In this document: piece after piece, positions 4,928 through 33,913 of the stretch
How the letters are laid out: the number at the start of each line of letters is the position of its first letter
Position numbering within the stretch: position 1 is the stretch's first letter
Origin: Planctomycetales bacterium
GTDB taxonomy: Bacteria; Planctomycetota; Planctomycetia; Pirellulales; JAEUIK01
Assembly: GCA_020426575.1 (NCBI GenBank)
Contig: JAGQPT010000270.1
Coordinates: 1-34,470 of the forward strand
DNA length: 34,470 nt
Direction: 5' to 3'
Made by a program: the position numbers and the translations under genes
Notes under the pieces: generated by a model
Databases searched by the model: none
The model's input: only the letters and a program-made list of their open reading frames with translations
What the model was told of the DNA's origin: nothing

Positions 4928-5264
4928 AGCACGCCGGCCGCGCCACAGCGATGCGCGTGGCCGGGGGGCCAGCGCAGCGGGCTCGCATACCAACGCCGCT
5001 TTCTGGCAAGTCGGGCAAACTCTACCGATTCGCGAAACCCTGCCGGTTGAGTCCAGTTGCGCGGTCGCGTATTTAGTACGGCCCGTTTCGACGGAAATCA
5101 CTTGGTGGCAGGGGGTTCTCTGCCCTTCTCTTGCGCCGTTGCGGCGCATTTCGTTGGTTTTTTCCCGGCCCGGCGGACGATGGATTTAGCATACGGGTGC
5201 CCAGCGCGCGATGGATGCGCGCCGGAGCCTGAATCGAAGCAGCCAAGCATCACGGACGATTCCC
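4928..5264. other. Intergenic region upstream of the lipoprotein gene
   Basis: 337 bp between two plus-strand genes. A GC-rich hairpin lies just after the DUF1552 stop (listed separately). The rest includes a T-run (TTGGTTTTTTCCC near 5153-5165) and an AT-richer patch, GGATTTAGCATACG, near 5182-5195, the most likely promoter area for the lipoprotein gene, but no -35/-10 pair is convincing. No RNA gene or repeat is seen. Confidence 0.4.
4934..4964 (+). terminator. GC-rich hairpin after the PSD/DUF1552 operon
   Basis: CCGGCCGCGC (4934-4943) pairs with GCGTGGCCGG (4955-4964): ten pairs with one G-U, around an 11-base loop, seven bases after the DUF1552 stop codon. A run of G, not T, follows, so it is not a classical intrinsic terminator. 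It may be a terminator without a U-tract or an mRNA 3'-end protector. Confidence 0.35.
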
Positions 5265-7949
5265 ATGTACCAACGGAAGGTTTCCACACTCGTAGCGCTG
5301 GTAGGCTCGACGGGCCTCGCGCTGGCAGTGGGCTGCGGCAAAGGCACACAACACGACACCTCCGCCCGGCGGTCATTGGAAGGCGCGCCCGAGCGCCAGG
5401 TGGCTAGCGCCGCGGCGGCCGAGCAAGTCGAGCCGGTCAGCGATGTGCCGATGCCCGGGTGGCTGCGCGGCGAGGATGGTTTGGGCGGTGGGGCCATGTT
5501 GACGCCTCCGCTGGCTCGCGGTCACCGCGCGGACGATGCACTGGGTGAGCCCCCCATGCCTCAAGCAACGTTGCCGCAGACGTTGGCCGCCGGCGCGCTC
5601 GAAGAGCGCAGCGGCTTCAAATCGAGCGGGCACGCCCGCCTGGCCGAGACGGTCACACCCGATCAAACCGTTGCCGCCGTGCCGCAGGAGCACATTATCC
5701 TGCACGGCGAATTGACCCCGCGCACAGAAGAGGCGTCGCAGAAATTCGCCGCGACGGCTGCGCCGTCAACGGGTGATCTTTCGGTTGAGGCCCCCGCCGG
5801 TGGCGCGGTCGACGACACGACGCTCGTCGCCGACCTGGACGGCACGCACTCGCTGAAGGTGCTCAGCACTTCGCCGCTGGCGCCGATTCCTGCCGACGCG
5901 GTCGCCAAGTCGACGACGAATGCAATTACCCCGACACCGTTGGCGATGACGGTCGAACGCCCCAGCGAACAGGTCGTGAATCCGTTCGTCAAGCCGACCG
6001 TGAAGGCCGATGAGACAGTCGACGAAAACTCGGTGCCGACGTCGCCGGCCGCGGATTCGCCCGCCACGGACTCGATCGCGGCGGCTACCGCGGACGTGCC
6101 TCGGCTGCGAGCCGATCTTCAGCCGCTGACGCATCCGCTGGCCGTGACAATGTCGCCATCGGAAAGCGCGACGCCGTCGGCTGACGAATTGGTTGGCGAG
6201 GCCACGTCCGACGCATCGCCGGCCCAGCAGTCCAACCAACAGCCGTCGTTGATCTCGATCCGCGGTCTGGCCGATGCGACGCCGGCCGTCGAGGCCCCAG
6301 CGGCCGAACCGCTCGCAGCCAAATCGAACGTCGCGGCCGACAGCCGCAGTGCCGCACCACCACGCACCACGGTGCCACGGGTCGAAGCGCGTCTGGCCGC
6401 AAAGCAACCGGCCGTGACGCACCCCGCTGCCGCGAAGCCCACGGTGAGCAAACCAGTCGAGGTAAGCCTTGCCGAAGCGGCGCCGCCTCCGAGCGCGCCT
6501 CTGGCTGCGACGGTCAAGACGAACACGAACGACGCGGCCGAGTTGGAAGCGACACAGCGGGCAAGTGCGCCGAGTGTTGCGGCGACTCCGATCGTGAGCC
6601 AACCGGTTGCCGCGATCCCACCGGTTGACACACCCGCAACGTCGGTCGCTGTGGACCCGCCGGCCGTTGACGTCGCGGCGAATGAATCGGTGCAGCCCCG
6701 CGTCGCGTTGGCCGAGCAGGTCGACGATGGCAAGCCGGCAAACCACCCGGCGGAGCAGACCTTCGCGCCGACGCCGCACCTCGAAGTGGCCGAATCGCTG
6801 AAGAAGTCCATCGAGGCCCCCGTCGCCCCGCAGCCGGCCACGGCGGCGACGATCGATCAACTGGTCGCAAGCGCCCAGGCCCACAACAATGCCGAGGCCC
6901 GCCGGCAGTTCCGCGCACCGGCCAACCGCGGTCAAGCCGCGGCACCACAATCGCGGGTCAATCCGCTGCTGGCCCAGGCGCCACGTCAGGCGGCCCCGCC
7001 GAGCATGTCACGCGAGATGTTGGCCGTCCGCAAGATGGCCGACATGCACACCTTTAACGGCTTCGACCTGGCTGCACGTCGGGCGCTCTTTTCGGCCGAG
7101 GCCGAGTTTGTCAGTGCATTGCGAGTGCTAACCCGGGCCGCCGACCGGCAAACCGGCAAGAAGGAGCGCGCTGAAGCTTTGGCCGAGGGCATTCTGGCGC
7201 TGGAGGAGTCGACCGACTTCCTGGCGAGCGGCTCGGAGTTGGAGGCCGACTACGACGTGAGCATGATCGTGTCGGGCCATCGCACCGAAGTGCTGCGTGG
7301 TGCTGAGAACTTGTCGGCCATGACGCCGCTCGAGGCGTCTCAGCACTACTACGCGTTTGCCCAACAGCGGCTTGCCGACGCGGTCGCCGGTGAACCGTCG
7401 GGTTCGTTCGCGCTGTACGGTCTGGGCAAGCTGTACGCGGCACGGTGCCTGGAACCGGGGGCCAACCCCGAGGCGCTCGAGCCCAAGGCGATGGTGTTCC
7501 ACCAGTCCGCGTTGATGTCGTGCCCGCTCAACTACATGGCGGCCAACGAGCTGGCGGTGTTGCTGGCTCGATACGGCAAATTGGAAAAGGCCCGCGACCT
7601 GCTCGTGCACAGCGTCCGCATCGCGCCGCAGGCCTCGACCTGGCACAATCTGGCAACAGTGCACGCCGAGCTGGGTGAACGCCAGCTGGCAGACGCCGCA
7701 ACTGCCGAGCGCACTTATGCCGAACATCGGGCACCGAGCAGCGTGAGCGATGCGGAAGTGAGCCCGGTTCGTTGGTTGGAGCCGGGCGACTTCGCCCGTT
7801 CGTCGGACCAGACCCGTTCGCCGATGGCGACCACCAACACAGAGCCGACGATCAAGCCGACCGTCGAGTCGAAGCCAACGGCAAAAACGCCGGTGCAACA
7901 AACCGCCGCCAAAGACGACGGACTGTTCGGCCTGTTCAAGAGGAAGTAA
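5265..7949 (+). CDS. Lipoprotein with long disordered linker and C-terminal TPR-like domain
   Basis: 894 residues from ATG 5265, chosen because it gives a clean lipoprotein signal: basic MYQRK, hydrophobic core, lipobox LAVGC with the lipidated cysteine at C24. An in-frame start at 5211 would place 18 hydrophilic residues before the signal. Residues about 25-575 are rich in Ala, Pro, Val, Thr and Glu, without predicted fold and with recurring short phrases such as AAEPLAAK and PAAAKPTVSKPVE. From about 580 to 845 the sequence becomes helical: SREMLAVRKMADMH, SQHYYAFAQQRLADAV, KAMVFHQSALMSC, NYMAANELAVLLARYGKLEKARDLL, STWHNLATVHAELGERQLADAA, a TPR-like arrangement. It ends GLFGLFKRK. It precedes a Wza-like export gene by 134 bp, suggesting a role in exopolysaccharide export or envelope organisation, with the linker spanning the periplasm. 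No enzymatic motif is seen. Confidence 0.8.
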   Translation: MYQRKVSTLVALVGSTGLALAVGCGKGTQHDTSARRSLEGAPERQVASAAAAEQVEPVSDVPMPGWLRGEDGLGGGAMLTPPLARGHRADDALGEPPMPQATLPQTLAAGALEERSGFKSSGHARLAETVTPDQTVAAVPQEHIILHGELTPRTEEASQKFAATAAPSTGDLSVEAPAGGAVDDTTLVADLDGTHSLKVLSTSPLAPIPADAVAKSTTNAITPTPLAMTVERPSEQVVNPFVKPTVKADETVDENSVPTSPAADSPATDSIAAATADVPRLRADLQPLTHPLAVTMSPSESATPSADELVGEATSDASPAQQSNQQPSLISIRGLADATPAVEAPAAEPLAAKSNVAADSRSAAPPRTTVPRVEARLAAKQPAVTHPAAAKPTVSKPVEVSLAEAAPPPSAPLAATVKTNTNDAAELEATQRASAPSVAATPIVSQPVAAIPPVDTPATSVAVDPPAVDVAANESVQPRVALAEQVDDGKPANHPAEQTFAPTPHLEVAESLKKSIEAPVAPQPATAATIDQLVASAQAHNNAEARRQFRAPANRGQAAAPQSRVNPLLAQAPRQAAPPSMSREMLAVRKMADMHTFNGFDLAARRALFSAEAEFVSALRVLTRAADRQTGKKERAEALAEGILALEESTDFLASGSELEADYDVSMIVSGHRTEVLRGAENLSAMTPLEASQHYYAFAQQRLADAVAGEPSGSFALYGLGKLYAARCLEPGANPEALEPKAMVFHQSALMSCPLNYMAANELAVLLARYGKLEKARDLLVHSVRIAPQASTWHNLATVHAELGERQLADAATAERTYAEHRAPSSVSDAEVSPVRWLEPGDFARSSDQTRSPMATTNTEPTIKPTVESKPTAKTPVQQTAAKDDGLFGLFKRK

Positions 7950-8083
7950 GCAACGGCTTAGCGCCGAGAACGATTAGAAGCGCAAAGCGACCCACCGCTT
8001 CCCAGCGGCACGATCGCCCCATATTCAATCGATACATTCGGACGACGTTACCGTCCGACCGACTGAGAGAGAACGATCAGCTC

Positions 8084-9277
8084 ATGCGAACCGAAGATCG
8101 AACCATGGCAACGGCGAAACCATTCCGACGTATTTCCCGTCGTCGACTGAGTGCCACGGGCACGTGTGTCGTGGCCCTGCTGGCCGTCGCGATCACCGCG
8201 GGATCGTCACAGTGGGCGCGGGCCCAGGCGCTGGGACCGGCGGCTCCTTTCTGCATCGGCGGCGTCGACTCGACGATCACCGGCGGCTGCGGTGAAGCGG
8301 GCTGGGACAACATGGGACCGCTCCCCTGGCAACAATACGCCCAGGGTGAATACGTCGGCCACGCCCGTACGGCACACGTTCCCGAATACCGGCTCCGCGT
8401 CGACGACACGCTCGACTTCATCTATCGGCTCACCCGCGATCCGTCGGCCCAGCCGTATCGCCTCAACGTTGGCGACGAGTTGCGTGTCGAGTCGTTCGTC
8501 GACCCCGACATCAACCGCGACCTGCTGGTACAGCCCGACGGCACGATCACGCTGCGTCTGCTCGGGCAAGTGCAAGCGGCCAACCGCACGGTGCAGGAGC
8601 TGCGCAAGGACATCGACGATCGCTATCGCGAGTTCTACAACGAGCCAGCCATTTCGGTGATCCCGCTCAAGGTCGACACGCGACTGGAAGACCTGCGCGA
8701 CACGATCAACGGCCGTTTCGGCCAGCGTGGCCAATCGCTGGAAGTTCGCGTTACGCCCGAAGGCACGGTGCAACTGCCCGCGGTCGGTTCGGTGCCGGTG
8801 CAGGGCATGACGCTCACCGAAGTCCGCGTCGAACTGCAGCAGCGTTACGGTGCCGAGTTCTCGGGCCTGGAAGTGATTCCCGTGCTGCGGCTGCGGGCCC
8901 CGCGTTACGCCTTCGTACTCGGCGAGGTGCAAGCCGGGGGCCGCTTCGAGCTCGTGGGACCGACGACCGTGATGCAGGCACTCGCACTGGCCGGCGGTCA
9001 CCGCGTCGGTGCCAACCTGCGGCAGGTGGTCGTCTTCCGCCGCGGCGACGATTGGCGGCTGATGGCGACGATGCTCGATCTGCGCGGAGCGGTTTATGGC
9101 AAGAGCCCGGGTCCTTCGGACGAAATCTGGTTGAACGACTCGGACATCGTGATCGTGCCGAAGGCGCCGATCCTGGTCGTCGACGAGTTCATCGACTTGG
9201 TGTTCACTCGCGGCATGTACGGCGTGCTGCCGATGCAGGGCGTGAGCCTCAACTTCTCGAAGCTGAGCACGCTGTAA
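8084..9277 (+). CDS. Polysaccharide export protein, Wza/SLBB type
   Basis: 397 residues. ATG 8084 is preceded by the purine-rich GAGAGAGAA about ten bases upstream; ATG 8105 is an alternative with no better site. The signal peptide has a twin-Arg-like basic start (RRISRRRL), then VVALLAVAITAG, with probable cleavage after WARA near residue 47; no lipobox cysteine is seen. The poly-export domain spans about 125-200 (YRLNVGDELRVESFVDPDIN, VQPDGTITLRLLGQVQAANRT). Two SLBB-like beta-grasp segments follow (about 220-280, VRVTPEGTVQLPAVGSVPVQG; about 285-370, YAFVLGEVQAGGRFELVGP then TVMQALALAGG). Family members form the outer-membrane channel for capsular or extracellular polysaccharide. The C-terminal part (VDEFIDLVFTRGMYGVLPMQ) takes the place of the Wza helix. 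No Wzc kinase or Wzx/Wzy genes are in the window, so the substrate is unknown. Confidence 0.88.
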   Translation: MRTEDRTMATAKPFRRISRRRLSATGTCVVALLAVAITAGSSQWARAQALGPAAPFCIGGVDSTITGGCGEAGWDNMGPLPWQQYAQGEYVGHARTAHVPEYRLRVDDTLDFIYRLTRDPSAQPYRLNVGDELRVESFVDPDINRDLLVQPDGTITLRLLGQVQAANRTVQELRKDIDDRYREFYNEPAISVIPLKVDTRLEDLRDTINGRFGQRGQSLEVRVTPEGTVQLPAVGSVPVQGMTLTEVRVELQQRYGAEFSGLEVIPVLRLRAPRYAFVLGEVQAGGRFELVGPTTVMQALALAGGHRVGANLRQVVVFRRGDDWRLMATMLDLRGAVYGKSPGPSDEIWLNDSDIVIVPKAPILVVDEFIDLVFTRGMYGVLPMQGVSLNFSKLSTL

Positions 9278-9283
9278 GCCAAA

Positions 9284-9330
9284 CGCCCGCCCGCATGACG
9301 ATCGGAGCCACGCGTCACGCCGATCGGGCG
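9284..9330. terminator. Inverted repeat between convergent genes, possible bidirectional terminator
   Basis: GATCGG (9300-9305) pairs with CCGATC (9320-9325). An outer CGCCC (9284-9288) can pair with GGGCG (9326-9330), with an unpaired stretch on the left side. It lies in the 107 bp between the ends of the export gene and the convergent DUF11 gene, where a shared terminator is expected. No T-run follows on either strand. Confidence 0.35.
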
Positions 9331-9384
9331 CGTCCCACATATTGCCCCTTCCCCGACGACGGGGCCGGCGAATTCGGATGTGCT

Positions 9385-12252
9385 CTAGTCGGCGAAGACG
9401 ACGGTCGGTTCGTCGCGCGTGACCGGTGTCGAGAGGTCGTCGCTGGCCAATTCGACGCGCAAGCGTGATTCGCCGGCGCGAACGGCCTCGACCTCGACAG
9501 TGAACGTGGTGTCCGCCCGAGGCGCCAGTCGCGGGATCGGATCGAACACGACACGATCGGCCGCGACTGTGTGGCGCACCGGCCCGCTGGCGTCGATCGC
9601 CTGCATGGTCGGCGGAATCACGGCCGTGACGCGGACGTTGCTGGCGGCCTTCGAGCCCTGGTTGACGACGCGAATCTCGTAGGCGGTGCGGCCCCCCACT
9701 TCCACGGGGTCCTGCACGTCGCGCACTTCGAACGAGACGGCTGCCAGACCTTCGATGTCGATCGTCTGCGACAGTTCGGCTCGCAGGCCCTGGGGCGTGG
9801 TGCTTTCGACGATGAGCGGATGGGCCCCCTCTTTGACCGCCCGGGCGCTGAGTTTCACGTCAGCCGGCTGCTGCGGCGGCAACTCCGTCAGCAACCAATG
9901 CACGGTGCGCGTCGTGGGGTCGTAGTAGCCGGCGTTGTTGGCGTCGACAAACTCGAGCCCGTCGGGAACGTGGGCCGCCAACTGTACGTCGTGGGCCGTC
10001 GCCGTACCGGGATTGTGCAGCGTGAGCGTGAACGTTCCCTCGCGCTGCAGGTAGCGCTGCGTGGGCCCCTCGAAACGGACCTCGAGCTTCGGCGCGACCA
10101 CCTCGACGCGGCTGGTCTCTTCGGCGGTGAAGTCACCGGCGGCGTAGGCAACGAGCCGGTTGTCCGTAACGCCCGCCTTGGTGGCGGTGAGCATGAGGTC
10201 GAGCTCGCGAACCTGCTTGGGGCCGAGATCACCAACGTCGTAGACCAAGCGCTGACCGCCGGGATGGTCGAACAACTCGGGGACGTACTCTTCGAGCCGC
10301 ACGGCATGGGCGACGCCCGTCCCCACGTTGGAGATCTTGATGACCAGTCGGGCCAGGCTGCCCACCAGCACTTCTTCCGGCGCCGCCGCTTCGATCTGCA
10401 ATTGGGGCTTTGTCACCGTGGCTCGGGCCGTCGACTCGGCGCCGACCAAGACGCGCGCCACGCTGCCCATGTCGCCTTCTACCTCGGGAACGATCTCCAT
10501 CTCGAGCTGGCGTTCTTCACCGGGTTCGAGGCTGCCGAGGGACCAGACGATCCGGCCGCCGTCGTTCTGCGCCTGGGGGTGCGTGCGCGAGAGCGTGGCG
10601 CCACGCGGCACTTCGTCGTGCACTTCGACACCATGGGCCGTCACTTGTCCGGTGTTACGGACAAAAATCTCCCAAATGGCGGGGCGACCAACCTGTGCTT
10701 CGACCGGTGCCCGCTTTTCGATACTGACACTCGCCTGCTGGACGCCTTCGAGCTGTGCGGGACCAGGCTGACCATGCCCCGACTCTGCCGACACGCCGAC
10801 TTCGGACGACCGCGCCGCCTGAGCCGTCGTATCGCCGAACGGCTGAGACACACCGACCGACTCGTGGGCCGAGGCGCCGGCTGGGCGGGTGAAGGCATGT
10901 GCTGTCGGTGGTGCTTCAGTCGAGTCGGCAACGTCGCCGTATTGCGACCCGCTGGATGACCGGCCATAAGATTGCTCGTCGTACGGCTGTTTGTCATAGG
11001 GCTGTTCACTGATGGGCTGCTGGCCGTATGGCTGTTGGTCGTACGACTGCGCAGCGTAAGAAGGCTGTTGGCCCACGTCGCTTCTCGTGTCGGCGGTGCT
11101 TGATTCGTAAGCGTTTGAACCGTGGGCGTTTGTGGCGTAGGCGTCGGCGCCATACGTGCCCCCGCCATATGGTCCCGTGACATCACCATTCGTGGCTGCG
11201 GTGTCGGCAGCAACGTCGTCGAGTGGTGCGGCCGGGGCGGCGCTGGGGCGTGTGACCGGTTCGAGCGGAGCGGCCGCGGCGCCGTATTGTGGACGTAGCG
11301 GATTGCCGCCGTCGCGCGCCATCGAGTTCCCGGCGGCCGCGTTTTCGTAGGGTCCACCGATTTCGGACGGGGCCAATTCATCAGCACCGTAGGCCGAGGC
11401 CGCATTCACGTCGACGTCTGCGTCGGCCGCGTTCGCCGCCAGGGCGCCCACGGCGGCACCCACACCGGTCGCCAGCGCAGCGCCTGCCGCGCCGCCACCG
11501 TCCGGCGCATGTTGGTCGCCGTATTGTTGCCCGTACTGGTCGTAGGCACCGGTGCTTGCGCCGGCACCGCTGGGTTCGGCGGCAGCCGCGGCGTACTGAC
11601 CCGAATCGGTATACTGGCCCGAGCCGTAACTGTCGCCATACGGCTGAGCGGCATACTGGTCGCCGGACGGCGGCTGAGCGTATGCACCACTCGATGCGGT
11701 GACGTCATCGTGAGGGGGCAACAAGTCTTCCCGCGGCGGCAGCATGTCAGCGGCCTCGCCCAGGGCGTGTGCATCGACCGGCGGCGTCAGTTCGTTCAGC
11801 GCCGATTCGGTCATTTCGACCGCTGCGGACGTCACGTCGGCCATCTCGCCGGGCGGCTCGGTTTCGACCGGCTGGATGCCGGCAAACGCAGCCGCGGCCG
11901 TGGGAATTCCCGAGACGTCGCCGCCGGAGGCGCCAGCGCCATAAGAACCGGCGGACGTGGCGTTGCCGTACGAGTTGGCCATCGGGGCAACACCTGACCG
12001 GGCAAACGGGTCGGGGGCTGCGTCCGGCGGGTCGGTCGACTCGCCGAGTGCATCGTCGTCAGTCTGGGAGGTCGCATCCGTCTGTGCCGTCGCGTCGGCT
12101 TGAACCTCGCCGCTCGGCGGTTCGGCATCGCTGACTTGTTCGCTGTCGCCGCCACCGAAGTAGCCCGTGGTCCATGCCACGCCGCCGGTGCCGCCGGCGG
12201 TGATCGTACTGATGGCGGCGGCAATCAACGACCATTTCTTTGACTTGATCAT
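9385..12252 (-). CDS. DUF11-repeat surface protein with Tyr/Gln/Gly-rich low-complexity region
   Basis: 955 residues. The start at 12252 (MIKSKKWSLIAAAISTITAG) gives a basic N-terminus followed by a hydrophobic signal-anchor; the open frame beyond it to 12450 is not protein-like. Residues about 35-500 are low complexity: an acidic Asp/Thr/Gln-rich part, then Tyr/Gly/Ser/Gln-rich stretches such as QPYGDSYGSGQYTDSGQYAA and hexapeptide-like repeats (YDQQPYGQQP, SEQPYDKQPYDEQSYG). Residues about 508-955 form four DUF11-type beta-sandwich repeats of about 105-118 residues, each with the pattern V.N.G...A..V...VP.G (for example VRNTGQVTAHGVEVHDEVPRG, LHNPGTATAHDVQLAAHVPDG). DUF11 repeats are typical of secreted or cell-wall proteins, and many planctomycete surface proteins carry them. 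Probably an anchored envelope protein; its partner is unknown. Confidence 0.85.
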   Translation of the reverse strand: MIKSKKWSLIAAAISTITAGGTGGVAWTTGYFGGGDSEQVSDAEPPSGEVQADATAQTDATSQTDDDALGESTDPPDAAPDPFARSGVAPMANSYGNATSAGSYGAGASGGDVSGIPTAAAAFAGIQPVETEPPGEMADVTSAAVEMTESALNELTPPVDAHALGEAADMLPPREDLLPPHDDVTASSGAYAQPPSGDQYAAQPYGDSYGSGQYTDSGQYAAAAAEPSGAGASTGAYDQYGQQYGDQHAPDGGGAAGAALATGVGAAVGALAANAADADVDVNAASAYGADELAPSEIGGPYENAAAGNSMARDGGNPLRPQYGAAAAPLEPVTRPSAAPAAPLDDVAADTAATNGDVTGPYGGGTYGADAYATNAHGSNAYESSTADTRSDVGQQPSYAAQSYDQQPYGQQPISEQPYDKQPYDEQSYGRSSSGSQYGDVADSTEAPPTAHAFTRPAGASAHESVGVSQPFGDTTAQAARSSEVGVSAESGHGQPGPAQLEGVQQASVSIEKRAPVEAQVGRPAIWEIFVRNTGQVTAHGVEVHDEVPRGATLSRTHPQAQNDGGRIVWSLGSLEPGEERQLEMEIVPEVEGDMGSVARVLVGAESTARATVTKPQLQIEAAAPEEVLVGSLARLVIKISNVGTGVAHAVRLEEYVPELFDHPGGQRLVYDVGDLGPKQVRELDLMLTATKAGVTDNRLVAYAAGDFTAEETSRVEVVAPKLEVRFEGPTQRYLQREGTFTLTLHNPGTATAHDVQLAAHVPDGLEFVDANNAGYYDPTTRTVHWLLTELPPQQPADVKLSARAVKEGAHPLIVESTTPQGLRAELSQTIDIEGLAAVSFEVRDVQDPVEVGGRTAYEIRVVNQGSKAASNVRVTAVIPPTMQAIDASGPVRHTVAADRVVFDPIPRLAPRADTTFTVEVEAVRAGESRLRVELASDDLSTPVTRDEPTVVFAD

Positions 12253-12316
12253 GCGTGCACCTGTCCGTGGATTCCGCTTTTGAGGCCCGCCCGCTGTGTG
12301 TGAGGAGCGATCTGCA

Positions 12317-12360
12317 GCGATGCCGGGGGGATGTCGAGACCGTCCGAGTGCTGGCATCGC
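12317..12360 (-). other. Perfect 8-bp inverted repeat upstream of the DUF11 gene
   Basis: GCGATGCC (12317-12324) and GGCATCGC (12353-12360) are exact reverse complements separated by 28 bases, 65-108 bases upstream of the DUF11 start codon in its presumed leader or promoter. A role as an mRNA stem or protein-binding site is inferred only. No clear promoter boxes are seen in this 264-bp gap. Confidence 0.3.
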
Positions 12361-12516
12361 GGCGCGAGGCGGAGTGTTTTGCGACGCGTAGGTAACACAT
12401 TCCCCGCGACGCGAGAAGATCAGTTCACCCGCCGCGGCCACGCACCGCACGTGCTAGCAGTTGATGCCTTCGTCGTGTGGCGAGGCAGAGTTCGCCGAAG
12501 CGCCAGGCGTGGAACT

Positions 12517-12885
12517 TCAGGACCGCTGGTCTTCGGGGCCGTAGCGACCGCGGTACTCGTCGACGGGATACTTCTGGCGGTTCTTGACCATCTTGGCAGC
12601 CAGGGCGGCGGCTACGTCGACATCCAACTCGTTGGCCAGCGCCAGAGCGTAACAGAGCACGTCGGCCAGTTCGTCGGCAATGTCCGCCAGCTTGTGGGGA
12701 TCATCGGCAAGTCGCCGCGACGCCTCGGCATCGATCCACTGGAAGTGCTCCATCAACTCGGCGGCCTCGATGGCCAATGACATCGCCAGGTTCTTCGGTG
12801 CGTGAAACTGCCGCCAGTCGCGCTCGTCGACAAATTCGCGCACCAGCCGGCGGCACTCGGCGACGGTCGTCTCTCGGTCGTTCAT
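12517..12885 (-). CDS. MazG-like nucleotide pyrophosphohydrolase (dCTP pyrophosphatase type)
   Basis: 122 residues, all-alpha NTP-PPase fold, the usual length for the short MazG-like/RS21-C6 (DCTPP1) group. It is expected to hydrolyse a (d)NTP to the monophosphate and pyrophosphate, with mispaired or modified dCTP-like nucleotides as typical substrates. Conserved elements: WRQFHAPKNLAMSLAIEAAELMEHFQW (residues 24-50) with the magnesium-binding E40/E43 pair, and the second metal motif around DELADVLCYALALANELDVD (E72, D75), followed by KMVKNRQKYPVDEYRGRYG at the C-terminus. The protein is complete and all metal ligands are present. It lies 56 bp downstream of the pseudo-receiver gene on the same strand and may be co-transcribed with it, although no functional link is obvious. 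Confidence 0.9.
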   Translation of the reverse strand: MNDRETTVAECRRLVREFVDERDWRQFHAPKNLAMSLAIEAAELMEHFQWIDAEASRRLADDPHKLADIADELADVLCYALALANELDVDVAAALAAKMVKNRQKYPVDEYRGRYGPEDQRS

Positions 12886-12941: not shown

Positions 12942-13949
12942 TCAGGCGGCCTCGCCATCAGTGTAGAGCGCGGGGGCCGGCGCGTCGTCGAAGCCGGGAA
13001 GCGACAACTGCCGTGGTGGATTTCGGCGCTCGTGGTAGCGATGCCGATACTCTTCGCCGAGTCGCACGATCAACTGCATGATCAACAGCCCGGCGCGGGT
13101 CATCACGTGGCGCGAACTACGGGAACCGAGCCCTCGAACCAGTTCCTCGAGCACGTGCAGGTGCATCTCCATCGTTTGCATTGGGGTGAATCCGGCGAAC
13201 GCCAGCAGCTCGGCCAGTTCGGCGAGTTCCTCGGCCAGGTTGCCGTCGCCCATCACGACGTAGGCCCGCAACAACTCGCGATAGTGGGCCAGCAGGTTGG
13301 CCGGCACACAACAGGTGATATCGTCGACGCCGGCCGCCGTCGTGTTCGAGGTTTCGGCGTCGTCGTAATCGACGCCGTCTTCAAGTTCGTCGCTTGTCAT
13401 CGCACGCACGAAACCGCGCTGTTCGCCGATCAGCCGAATCGCCTCGGCGTGTTGCTGGCGGAGGCGGTGTTGTTCGTGTTGCACGAACTTGCGGTTCTCG
13501 CGCAACAGGCGATGGCGCTCGACGGCCCGAGCGACGGTCCAGATCAGCGTGCGGGTCGTCGTCGTGTTGACACAGGTGTAGCCGTCGGCGCCGACTTCGT
13601 AGCAGAGGGCCGTCATCTCCTGCTCGCTCTGATCGCCGAGCACGATGACGGGCTGGTCGCCGACGCCGGCCTTCATTCCTTCGAGCAACTCAAGGGCGTC
13701 GAGGTGTTCGGGATCGTGGCTGAGCAGGACGGCGTCGAAGACTTCGTCGCGGAGCCGACTGATGCCGGCCGATTGCCCGCAGGCTTCCTCGAGCAGCACG
13801 TCCGAGGCACTGTCCGAGGCGAACGCCTCGGCGAGCCAGCCACCAGTGCGATGGGGGCTCGTGATGAACAACACGCGCAGCTGCGGCGGGAGCGCCTTCC
13901 AGCACCCTGCCGGCATCTGATTGACTGCGTCGCGCAGTCCCGCGCTCAT
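12942..13949 (-). CDS. Pseudo-receiver protein with C-terminal helical domain
   Basis: 335 residues from 13949 (MSAGLRDAVNQMPAGCW); AAGGACG lies about ten bases upstream and the longer open frame is not protein-like. Residues about 24-140 follow the CheY-like receiver pattern (LRVLFITSPH, FDAVLLSHDPEHLDALELLEGMK, QPVIVLGDQ, YEVGADGYTCVN). The phosphorylation residues are missing: T30/S31 replace the acidic pair, S77 replaces the phospho-acceptor Asp, G105 the conserved Thr/Ser and N128 the Lys. A coiled-coil linker (ENRKFVQHEQHRLRQQHAEA) leads to a C-terminal helical domain (about 225-310, LLAHYRELLRAYVVMGDGNLAEELAELAELLAFAGFTP) that resembles, by eye, the N-terminal partner-recruiting domain of RsbU. 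The protein is therefore probably a phosphorylation-independent adaptor or partner-switch component. No output enzyme or DNA-binding domain is visible. Confidence 0.7.
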   Translation of the reverse strand: MSAGLRDAVNQMPAGCWKALPPQLRVLFITSPHRTGGWLAEAFASDSASDVLLEEACGQSAGISRLRDEVFDAVLLSHDPEHLDALELLEGMKAGVGDQPVIVLGDQSEQEMTALCYEVGADGYTCVNTTTTRTLIWTVARAVERHRLLRENRKFVQHEQHRLRQQHAEAIRLIGEQRGFVRAMTSDELEDGVDYDDAETSNTTAAGVDDITCCVPANLLAHYRELLRAYVVMGDGNLAEELAELAELLAFAGFTPMQTMEMHLHVLEELVRGLGSRSSRHVMTRAGLLIMQLIVRLGEEYRHRYHERRNPPRQLSLPGFDDAPAPALYTDGEAA

Positions 13950-14020
13950 CGGCACGCGTCCTTGCTGGTCATCGTTCGGGCCCCGCCATTGCCTGGACAG
14001 GCTCAACGCCCCTGCTAGCT

Positions 14021-14063
14021 GTCCGCCTGTGGTGCGATCGACTGGGTCGCACCCATCGCGGAC
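14021..14063 (-). promoter_or_regulatory. Nested hairpin in the pseudo-receiver mRNA leader
   Basis: GTCCGC (14021-14026) pairs with GCGGAC (14058-14063), and inside it GGTGCGA (14031-14037) pairs with TCGCACC (14047-14053). The two stems are separated by a symmetrical 4+4 internal loop, and a 9-base loop caps the structure. All 13 pairs are perfect. Given the minus-strand promoter at 14095-14123, it would start about 25 bases after the transcription start and end about 70 bases before the start codon. It could be a regulatory leader element or an operator; no known riboswitch is recognised. Confidence 0.5.
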
Positions 14064-14094
14064 GGACCGAGCGTTTCGCCCGACAGGCGCGGCT

Positions 14095-14123
14095 ACTCTA
14101 TCGGCTGCCCTAGCGGGGGTCAA
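14095..14123 (-). promoter_or_regulatory. Sigma70-type promoter for the pseudo-receiver gene
   Basis: On the minus strand, TTGACC (14123-14118) and TAGAGT (14100-14095) are separated by exactly 17 bases, a 5/6 and a 4/6 match to the consensus. The predicted transcription start is near 14088, giving a leader of about 138 bases for the gene starting at 13949. Confidence 0.5.
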
Positions 14124-14198
14124 CATCGCCTGGACGACCGCCGCAGACATCTGCTCGGGGCCTTGCCGGCGCCAGCCGACGTCGGCGGAGCACTGATA

Positions 14199-14226
14199 TT
14201 GCTCAGTTGCCCCGTGCACTTAGAAT
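14199..14226 (+). promoter_or_regulatory. Possible promoter for larC
   Basis: TAGAAT at 14221-14226 is a 5/6 match to the -10 box. TTGCTC at 14199-14204, 16 bases upstream, is a weak -35 box. The predicted start near 14233 would leave a leader of about 57 bases before the LarC start codon. Confidence 0.35.
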
Positions 14227-31729: not shown

Positions 31730-33913
31730 TTAGCTGACCAGGGACACGATCCCGGCGAGTATTCCCAGTATCACCACACCGGACAACAGCTTCAAGCGCG
31801 TGCTGTAATACCCTCGGGTCATCGTGTCGAGTTTGAAGTAGCCGAACAAGGTGCCCAACACCGCCAGCAGCGCTCCCGAGAGCACGCCGGTCATGGCGAG
31901 TCGCTCGTTGACCATGCGTTGGCGGGTGACGACTTCGAGGTGACGTCGCACGTCGGGCGAATACTCCAGCCGCGCGTACATCGTCCGCATGGGGCCGACC
32001 GACGTCTCGCGCCGTTCTTCCCAAACGTTGGTGACGAGTCGGCTGCGGAGGTAACCGCGATCGAGGACGTCGAAGTTGCCGACCCCCGGCTGCAGGTGGG
32101 TCAGGTAGTCGCTCGTGGCCCGGTGTATCGCGTCGTCCAGTGCCCGGTCGCATTCGACTCGCGTTTCGTACGGCCCGGCCGAGACCGTGACGCGGTAGAC
32201 GCCGTCGTTCTTTAGTTGGTCCTCATCGTCGACCCAGTCGGGGCGGTCGGGAGAGGTATCGATCTCGATGGGGGAATCGATCTCGATCGCCTCGCTTTCG
32301 CGTCGGGGAATCGACGCAACGACCGGCGGCACGGGGGCGGCCGCGGGCGTGGCGGGCGAAATTGGTGACGGAGGCGCTTCCGTGCCCTCCGCGCCGATCA
32401 ACAGCTCAGGATCTCGGTCCAGCGTGGCCGCAGAAGGAGCAGTCGCGGCCTGTGGCTCGGCTGCCGCGTCGGCGTCGGACTCCGCGGCGGTCTTGGGCTC
32501 ATTCGCGGAGTCGTCGTCCGCAGGCTGTTCGGCTGTCGACGCCCCGGCGCTCGCGTCGGCTGTCGAGGTATCGGCTGTCGAGGCGTCTGATGTCGTGGAG
32601 TCCGCGACGTCGGCGGCCTCGGCGCTTGCATCTGCTGCGGTGGCATTGGCTGCAGTGGCAGCTGATGCTTCAGCAGCCGCCGATTCGACGTTGGAGGTGT
32701 CGACGTTGGTTGTGTCGACGTCGCCATCGCTGGTAGCTGCTTGGTCGGCGGCCCCGGCACTTTCGCTGGTATTCTCGCCGGTCTCCTCGACGGGATTGTC
32801 GGCTTGCGACGTCTCTTGTTCCGCGTCGTGGCTATCCGTTTCGCTGTCCACCGGCTCCGGACTTTCTGGCGGCTCCGCTGCGGACGAGTCGTCGGCAGTG
32901 TCCGGATCCGCAGCGGCAACATCACCGCCGCGCAGGGCGTCTTCCGGCGATTGAGCCGCTTCCTGCTGTTCCACGTCGTCGTCGAGTTGGGCAAGTTGTT
33001 TGCCCGCGTCGGAATCGTCGACCGGCAGTAGGGCCGCGACAATCTGCTCTCGCGACGCGTCGACCAACTGCTGCTCGACGTCGGTGAGCGGCTGACGCTG
33101 GTAGACCTGCAGGCGCACCGAGTCGTCGTCGACTTCCTGTGTGAACGTGCCCTGGATCGTTGCTTCAACGCGCTCGTCGAGCCAGATCAGCTCGGCGGCG
33201 AGTTCGTCCACGTCGGCGGCGCCCGTGGCACCATGTGGCACACCAATCACCCGAATCACGCGCGGTCCCTGAGTGTCGTCCTTGAGTTTCGTCGAACGGG
33301 ACAGGTCACGCGTCACGGCGGCAAGTGGTATCGCGTTGTTGTTGTCGTCACCCTGCAGACGGATGCGGCGGAGTTGGCCAAGGTCGACCGGATGTTCCGG
33401 ATCAGCCAAGGCCACAAGTTCGACAAACGTCGCCACGGCGTCGGCGAGTTGGCTCGCCGAGACGTGGAGTTCGTCGATGGCCGACGGGTCGAGCGCGAGT
33501 CGCACAACCGTCGCGGCGTCGCGGTCCGAAACATTCAGAGCGTCGGCGTGTTGCGCCGTCGTCGGGGTCACGACCGGCTGGGGATGCACGTCGTTTTCAA
33601 GCCGGACCGTTTTAGCATGTTGTTCGTCGACGCGCACGGCCAGTCGAGGTGCGTGCGGGCCGTCGGGGCGGAATTCTTGTGCGGGTTCTACTGGCACTAC
33701 GCGGTGAGCTCGGTAACCGACGAGGGCAATGCCGATGAGCACCACCGGCGTGATCAGCAGGCCGGTGGCGATCAGCCCCAGGACGGCCCACCCACCACCT
33801 TTTTTGACCACGGTCACCCACATCAACACGATCAGCGCGACGACGATCAGCTCCCAGAAGCCGATCACTCCGATGAACGCCAGCGGCGCGAAATGTTGAT
33901 CAACGGCAGGCAT
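31730..33913 (-). CDS. Large membrane protein with acidic disordered linker
   Basis: 727 residues from 33913, with GAGGAG ten bases upstream. Two N-terminal helices (residues about 10-35, IGFWELIVVALIVLMWVTVV, and 40-66, VLGLIATGLLITPVVLIGIA) are separated by a basic loop (KKGGG), so residues about 70-680 are probably periplasmic. Residues about 95-320 look folded (VRLALDPSAIDELHVSASQL, TRDLSRSTKLKDDTQGPRVI, IRVIGVPHG). Residues about 325-515 are an Asp/Glu/Ala/Ser/Thr-rich linker with short repeats (TSTADTS-like, DTTNVDTSNVES). A second folded domain (about 560-670, RPDWVDDEDQLKNDGVYRVT, AGPYETRVECDRALDDAIHR) precedes two C-terminal helices (LAMTGVLSGALLAVLGTLFG; LKLLSGVVILGILAGIVSLV). Family not named. 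Its neighbourhood suggests an envelope sensor or structural partner of the ECF sigma system. Confidence 0.72.
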   Translation of the reverse strand: MPAVDQHFAPLAFIGVIGFWELIVVALIVLMWVTVVKKGGGWAVLGLIATGLLITPVVLIGIALVGYRAHRVVPVEPAQEFRPDGPHAPRLAVRVDEQHAKTVRLENDVHPQPVVTPTTAQHADALNVSDRDAATVVRLALDPSAIDELHVSASQLADAVATFVELVALADPEHPVDLGQLRRIRLQGDDNNNAIPLAAVTRDLSRSTKLKDDTQGPRVIRVIGVPHGATGAADVDELAAELIWLDERVEATIQGTFTQEVDDDSVRLQVYQRQPLTDVEQQLVDASREQIVAALLPVDDSDAGKQLAQLDDDVEQQEAAQSPEDALRGGDVAAADPDTADDSSAAEPPESPEPVDSETDSHDAEQETSQADNPVEETGENTSESAGAADQAATSDGDVDTTNVDTSNVESAAAEASAATAANATAADASAEAADVADSTTSDASTADTSTADASAGASTAEQPADDDSANEPKTAAESDADAAAEPQAATAPSAATLDRDPELLIGAEGTEAPPSPISPATPAAAPVPPVVASIPRRESEAIEIDSPIEIDTSPDRPDWVDDEDQLKNDGVYRVTVSAGPYETRVECDRALDDAIHRATSDYLTHLQPGVGNFDVLDRGYLRSRLVTNVWEERRETSVGPMRTMYARLEYSPDVRRHLEVVTRQRMVNERLAMTGVLSGALLAVLGTLFGYFKLDTMTRGYYSTRLKLLSGVVILGILAGIVSLVS

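Follow-up and report, generated by a model that had tools for sequence, protein, structure and literature searches.

Recurring short motifs and regularly spaced tyrosines in the predicted disordered linker of a planctomycete DUF11 protein

In the structure of CLIPPER, Lys 715 and Asp 748 belong to the isopeptide triad (PMC12617251, in the available part of the text). In an anammox planctomycete, the disordered repeats of an S-layer protein were suggested to allow phase transitions in the matrix (PMC10202920, likewise in its available part). A literature search on Planctomycetes DUF11, disorder, and prion-like or Tyr-rich regions, with subscription papers and preprints mostly outside its scope, gave no description of the protein reported here among the matches listed. 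To my knowledge, little has been written on short linear motifs in the linkers of exported bacterial proteins.

The window, the whole stretch of DNA analysed here, has 34,470 nucleotides and is contig C128 of a Planctomycetales genome assembly (G000; 610 contigs, 90.29% complete). It was found that a frame of 955 codons is open on the minus strand from 12252 to 9388 and encodes a DUF11 protein of 955 amino acids. The Tyr/Gln-rich peptides quoted in an earlier, sequence-only reading of this DNA are present in its translation. An upstream extension of 66 codons, reaching a GTG at 12450, is also open. The ATG at 12252 was preferred as the start codon, since the hydrophobic segment follows it directly, as in the orthologs. 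The features of the locus are as follows.

9388..12252, minus strand: the 955-aa protein, with an N-terminal hydrophobic segment, a predicted disordered linker and four DUF11 domains (from the frame, Pfam, model and orthologs)
12160..12231, minus strand: N-terminal hydrophobic segment, about residues 8-31, a putative membrane anchor or signal peptide (from the sequence, model and orthologs)
10783..12150, minus strand: predicted disordered linker rich in Ala, Gly, Ser, Pro and Asp, residues 35-490 (from composition; ten-residue blocks with pLDDT 36-54)
12004..12012, minus strand: DPF motif, residues 81-83 (from [DN]PF enrichment across 94 linkers)
11521..11682, minus strand: Tyr/Gln-rich patch 1, residues 191-244 (16.7% Tyr, 14.8% Gln)
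11293..11304, minus strand: NPLR motif, residues 317-320 (from NPLR enrichment across 94 linkers)
10939..11169, minus strand: Tyr/Gln-rich patch 2, residues 362-438 (14.3% Tyr, 14.3% Gln; from the list of Tyr gaps)
10411..10740, minus strand: DUF11 domain 1, about residues 505-614, with conserved Lys 513 and Asp 546 (from Pfam, model and alignment)
10096..10410, minus strand: DUF11 domain 2, about residues 615-719 (from Pfam and model)
9751..10095, minus strand: DUF11 domain 3, about residues 720-834 (from Pfam and model)
9388..9750, minus strand: DUF11 domain 4, about residues 835-955 (from the TIGR01451 search and model)
8027-9277, downstream and convergent: polysaccharide export gene (PF02563 and SLBB, from Pfam)

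The layout proposed by the sequence-only reading, in which a disordered linker joins the hydrophobic N-terminus to four DUF11 domains, is supported by sequence, Pfam and AlphaFold2. DUF11 (PF01345) scored 119.9 bits against a gathering cut-off of 24.6 (three stretches scored, E 9e-35), which places the protein in the DUF11 domain family, and TIGR01451 scored 53.3 bits against a cut-off of 24. In an AlphaFold2 run with 34 orthologs (mean pLDDT 67.0, pTM 0.44), four beta-sandwiches are predicted from residue 511 on, with a pLDDT of 83-97 in ten-residue blocks; the domain boundaries given above were read from the strands of this model. Residues 1 to about 500 have mostly a pLDDT below 50 and hardly any secondary structure, with a helix at residues 8-14. 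The low pLDDT of the linker is consistent with disorder, although it falls short of proof. Translation of the linker as drawn is supported by the frames of the orthologs, which likewise begin with a hydrophobic stretch, continue as a low-complexity linker and pass on to the DUF11 part. The codon-position GC (GC1 0.72, GC2 0.60 and GC3 0.72 in the linker; 0.74, 0.46 and 0.82 in the DUF11 part) lends weak support to translation inside the linker. A promoter and terminator scan of positions 9200-12600 found neither.

A sequence search of solved structures gave a single weak match, the grappling hook protein of Aureispira (E 0.0031). The leaders of a PDB fold search, among the 50 of 1969 matches listed, were multi-domain Ig-like proteins of a generic kind, such as PrgB Ig domains, central-pair proteins and integrins (TM to the query, 0.11-0.23), and no specific relative was among the matches listed. 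In Pfam at E 0.1, DUF11 and similar Ig-like or beta-sandwich families were the only matches, and no adhesive or sorting domain was found. A fibrillar adhesin is recognised by an adhesive domain on a stalk; thus, the Pfam matches do not place the protein in that class, an undescribed adhesive domain being possible.

Is this protein common in its order, probably Pirellulales, and in the class? All of the 57 same-order genomes (the own genome included, the others from outside its genus) have a match, and 53 of them have a clear ortholog of at least 295 bits. The genomes without a clear ortholog are G002, G016, G041, and G052; G002 and G041 are 80 and 73% complete. Of the 158 genomes taken as a sample of the class, among them the same-order genomes and the own genome, 157 match a profile of the DUF11 half. 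Matches of the orthologs mostly start at the beginning of the DUF11 half, and the identity over the matched part is 37-49% in 50 of the 52 non-own orthologs and 32 and 34% in the other two. Low-complexity sequence precedes the DUF11 part in all 52, of which L079 and L084 are cut by a contig end. The orthologs share the layout of a hydrophobic start, a variable linker and a DUF11 part, and the hydrophobic segment lies at the same place. The tree gives the query a long branch (0.97) and no sister with support; its bootstrap had not settled.

For the comparison of linkers, the 52 non-own orthologs were combined with 80 named loci (80 of the 170 relatives found; Blastopirellula marina DSM 3645, Bythopirellula polymerisocia and Adhaeretor mobilis are among them) from partly overlapping genomes, giving 132 loci. 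This set was reduced to 94 by discarding loci whose DUF11 parts were over 85% identical, together with six that a contig end truncates (L079, L101, L108, L117, L147, and L148). In one of these, L127, the linker is apparently in a different frame from the DUF11 part, so that the gene or the assembly is interrupted. Counts over 95 rows include L127, while counts over 94 rows comprise 93 loci and the query, without L127.

In domain 1, Lys is found in 94 of the 95 rows and Asp in 93, while Ser occupies the presumed Asn position in all 95. That position, which I presume from the usual DUF11 pattern, was judged by eye. Since Ser stands at the presumed bond-forming Asn position, the Lys-Asp-Asn triad of CLIPPER appears incomplete, and the canonical isopeptide bond is probably absent from domain 1, which is possibly a bond-less or altered DUF11 form. 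In domains 2-4 of the query, no Lys was seen by eye at the equivalent place.

The hydrophobic residues 8-31 make the membrane anchor claimed by the sequence-only reading plausible but leave it unproven, as an AxAQ motif, which looks like a signal-peptide cleavage site, lies around the end of the hydrophobic stretch in 35 of 93 orthologs. Beyond the downstream polysaccharide export gene lies a gene (5211-7946, plus strand) whose 912-aa product matches TPR weakly, may begin like a lipoprotein and is rich in Ala, Pro and Thr over a long middle part. On its own strand, the DUF11 gene has a MazG-like gene (122 aa) upstream, followed by a gene for a 425-aa protein (12945-14219, minus strand) with weak response-regulator and KaiA C-terminal matches below the cut-offs. 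Beyond the latter, on the other strand, is a gene for a nickel insertion protein, which I take to be LarC. A scan of the neighbours of 52 ortholog loci gave SLBB in 11, TPR in 11, LarC in 5 and a response-regulator-like gene in 5; these counts cover flanks of about 6 kb, where several contigs end sooner, and frames of at least 150 aa, so that 122-aa MazG-like genes are missed. The shared neighbours support orthology, and the neighbourhood is too patchy to assign a pathway or to name a partner. Elsewhere in the window, hydrophobic segments lie close to the two termini of a 727-aa protein (31733-33913, minus strand), whose long middle is rich in Ala, Asp, Ser, Thr and Glu; no Pfam or NCBIfam match was found for it at E 0.01.

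The linker of about 455 residues consists of Ala (20.6%), Gly (12.4%), Ser (9.7%), Pro (9.2%), Asp (8.8%), Gln (6.4%), and Tyr (5.4%) as its listed residues. It had been described as biased to Tyr, Gln and Gly over about 450 residues. The bias is real in residues 191-244 and 362-438, that is, in patches of 54 and 77 residues (131 in total), but does not extend across the Ala-led rest, where three other stretches have 0-2.6% Tyr. A prion domain in the Q/N sense has a threshold of about 30 Q+N in 80 residues. The linker reaches at most 13 in any 80 residues, and the term "prion-like" does not apply in this sense. The spacing of Tyr is regular. Eight of the 24 Tyr-Tyr gaps are exactly 5 (shuffle mean 1.06; none of 5000 shuffles reaches 8), and 12 of the 24 are 3-6, which one of 5000 shuffles reaches. 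In patch 2, eight of the 10 Tyr gaps are 5 or 10. Gaps of 2 or less are absent, as they are in 279 of the 5000 shuffles. The clustering of Tyr is weak, with a maximum of nine in 60 residues that is matched by 427 of the 5000 shuffles.

The sticker-and-spacer composition that had been proposed, in which small polar residues would separate Tyr over a long disordered region, holds for about 131 residues, but not for the remaining linker, and the patches have almost no Arg (patch 1 has none, patch 2 has 2.6%). It might be that such a region drives extracellular condensation or matrix assembly. The 14-17% Tyr of the two patches and their spacing would suit this role, and phase transitions have been suggested for the disordered repeats of the planctomycete S-layer protein in the anammox matrix (PMC10202920, available part). 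However, the qualifying residues are a minor part of the linker, the scarcity of Arg is unfavourable, and most of the orthologs compared lack the bias. I regard a condensation-driving region as improbable. A Tyr cluster of the cytoplasmic Tyr-kinase type was also considered and was rejected by reasoning only, since it would lie on the wrong side of the membrane if the protein is exported.

Repeat slippage may have shaped the linker. Tandem Repeats Finder gave no array in the region; weaker short direct repeats exist in the DNA, whose further copies match the reference copy at 64-88% identity. These repeats would agree with the idea that the linker is a neutral spacer drifting by slippage and substitution, whose Tyr/Gln patches are functionless degenerate micro-repeats. 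However, a fresh slippage product is not apparent, because the codons in the linker are mixed for both Tyr (17 TAC and 8 TAT) and Gln (18 CAG and 10 CAA). A search of the own genome with the linker alone returned the gene itself, and no sister linker was found.

It was assessed whether the Tyr/Gln bias is shared by the relatives. The query ranks first of the 94 linkers in Tyr (5.4%, against a median of 1.4%), followed by L099 (4.9%), L161 (4.4%), L128 (4.3%), and L153 (4.0%), while it ranks 17th of the 94 in Gln. Therefore, the Tyr bias of the query is an outlier and its Gln level is not. The sequence-only reading had offered adhesion, matrix assembly or tyrosine cross-linking as roles and had named orthologs lacking the bias as the refuting evidence. 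Such orthologs prevail here, so that this refuting result was largely obtained, and a conserved role of the Tyr/Gln bias in adhesion, condensation or cross-linking is not supported. The same outlier status favours the neutral spacer, as does the length of the linker, which varies from 106 to 505 residues among the rows compared; the linker starts come from an automatic search for the hydrophobicity peak, which went wrong in some rows, and the linker of L051 includes the hydrophobic segment. Cross-linking of Tyr by dityrosine formation or oxidation, which would harden the envelope, is a very remote prospect. It would fit the even spacing of Tyr in sequence predicted to be disordered, but the bias is not conserved, and no peroxidase or tyrosinase family is among the Pfam matches of the 20 window frames scanned.

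Some linkers have runs of Tyr. Series of at least three successive Tyr spaced 4-6 apart were found in 7 of the 95 linkers (shuffle mean 1.34, maximum 6). The shuffles used here keep the composition of each linker and not the kinship, and their numbers are not probabilities. The runs are rare in the own shuffles of L161 (eight Tyr, 0 of 500), the query (five Tyr, 1 of 500), L041 (four Tyr, 1 of 500), and L040 (three Tyr, 4 of 500), weakly rare in L152 (18 of 500), and not rare in L128 and L099 (65 and 62 of 500). The tree joins L040 and L041 as sisters, so their runs perhaps go back to a single event. The linker of L161 ends, shortly before the DUF11 part, in tandem PAYG-type repeats that place eight successive Tyr at a gap of 6. 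The own genome has a second DUF11 protein, the paralog L167 on contig C111, whose linker likewise contains a Tyr-spaced patch; with gaps of 4-7 allowed, it has a run of four Tyr (6 of 2000 shuffles). The recurrence of such runs in some orthologs and one paralog counts against the neutral spacer.

I found that three short motifs recur in the linkers far above the composition shuffles. Of the 94 linkers, 58 carry [DN]PF (shuffle mean 5.9, maximum 14), 47 carry NPLR (mean 0.3, maximum 3), and 48 carry [DNS]RY (mean 3.7, maximum 12). At least one of the three types is found in 83 of the 94 linkers, all three in 15 and none in 11. The excess persisted in a smaller set that omits the query and keeps loci up to 60% identity in the DUF11 half, where the counts were 24, 16 and 18 of 45 for [DN]PF, NPLR and [DNS]RY (shuffle means 3.0, 0.2 and 1.9). 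The order of the motifs differs from linker to linker, which argues against plain residual alignment. The query linker keeps DPF and NPLR and lacks RY; the comparison in which its motifs were located omitted L085, which nearly duplicates L064, and three linkers no longer than 100 residues. QPY was rejected as a conserved motif, occurring in 4 of 94 linkers against a shuffle mean of 2.5.

The motifs were also counted outside the ortholog group. Among 20 linkers from high scorers of the class search that belong to other orders, five have DPF, two have NPF, one has [DNS]RY and none has NPLR. Of twelve paralog loci (two of the own genome, some cut short), none has NPLR, one has DPF, two have NPF and seven have RY. 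The low-complexity controls are small and consist in part of spurious frames: 6933 residues of stretches in other frames near the orthologs have one DPF, one NPF, one NPLR and four [DNS]RY, and 2231 residues from 400 kb of six genomes have no DPF, NPF or NPLR and four [DNS]RY. In the larger control, NPLR, NPF and two of the RY come from a single stretch in L127, probably a piece of the ortholog read in a different frame. Among the sequences examined, NPLR is thus specific to this ortholog group, while DPF is spread wider than the order. RY is the weakest and least certain of the three, since it is not rare in the random-genome control and occurs in paralogs. The enrichment of the motifs is hard to reconcile with a neutral spacer, which I consider unlikely, though still worth weighing.

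I favour, with moderate confidence, the view that the protein is an exported tether and stalk with docking motifs in its linker, and that the Tyr patches are a lineage-specific expansion of micro-repeats. The N-terminal hydrophobic segment, to judge from the basic N-terminus, would export the protein, so that the rest may lie outside the inner membrane. There, a flexible, disordered tether would precede a rod of four Ig-like DUF11 domains. In this tether of variable length and composition, [DN]PF, NPLR and [DNS]RY probably dock partners in the envelope. In the query lineage, where RY is absent, (Q/S/P/A)Y(G/A/D) micro-repeats seem to have multiplied Tyr in the two patches. The likeliest reading of these repeats is that they contribute weak multivalent contacts or represent drift that is tolerated. 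In L041, the shared RY motif stands in tandem (DRYADRYADRY), which suggests how Tyr arrays may start. Some support for a wider role of Tyr survives in the runs of L161, L041/L040, and the paralog, together with the occurrence of [DNS]RY in about half of the linkers. A broader idea is that a near-universal envelope tether of the order uses movable linker motifs to dock partners, and that some lineages, including that of the query, have turned a Tyr motif into multivalent sticker arrays; I hold this to be possible and rather doubtful. The Tyr patches alone are a lineage curiosity. An ortholog in nearly every genome of the order, with a fast-changing linker in which motifs recur, gives a handle on how the planctomycete envelope holds together.

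How does this protein compare with known systems? The FUS low-complexity domain, whose generally known composition was used for the comparison, is resembled by the two patches in their high Tyr, Gln, Gly and Ser. In contrast, Ala is the commonest residue of the query linker, the patches are short, the bias is not conserved, and the protein is probably an exported bacterial one. The stalk proteins of the CLIPPER type (PF01345; TIGR01451) have the same tandem DUF11 beta-sandwiches, found here in a probably exported protein. Domain 1 of the query keeps a Lys and an Asp 33 residues apart, like the Lys-Asp pair of CLIPPER (PMC12617251, available part), while the query differs by the long N-terminal linker ahead of the stalk. 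With the tethers of the TonB/TolA type, the query shares the three-part layout of a membrane helix, a proline-rich or disordered linker and a C-terminal domain (PMC12204202, as far as the available part describes it). The same source also names an SHLS motif and motor genes. The C-terminal part of the query consists of four DUF11 domains, and the likeness drawn here is one of layout. The anammox S-layer protein (PMC10202920) is likewise a planctomycete surface protein with a disordered part; it is likened here by its description in the available part of that source, and no relation is claimed.
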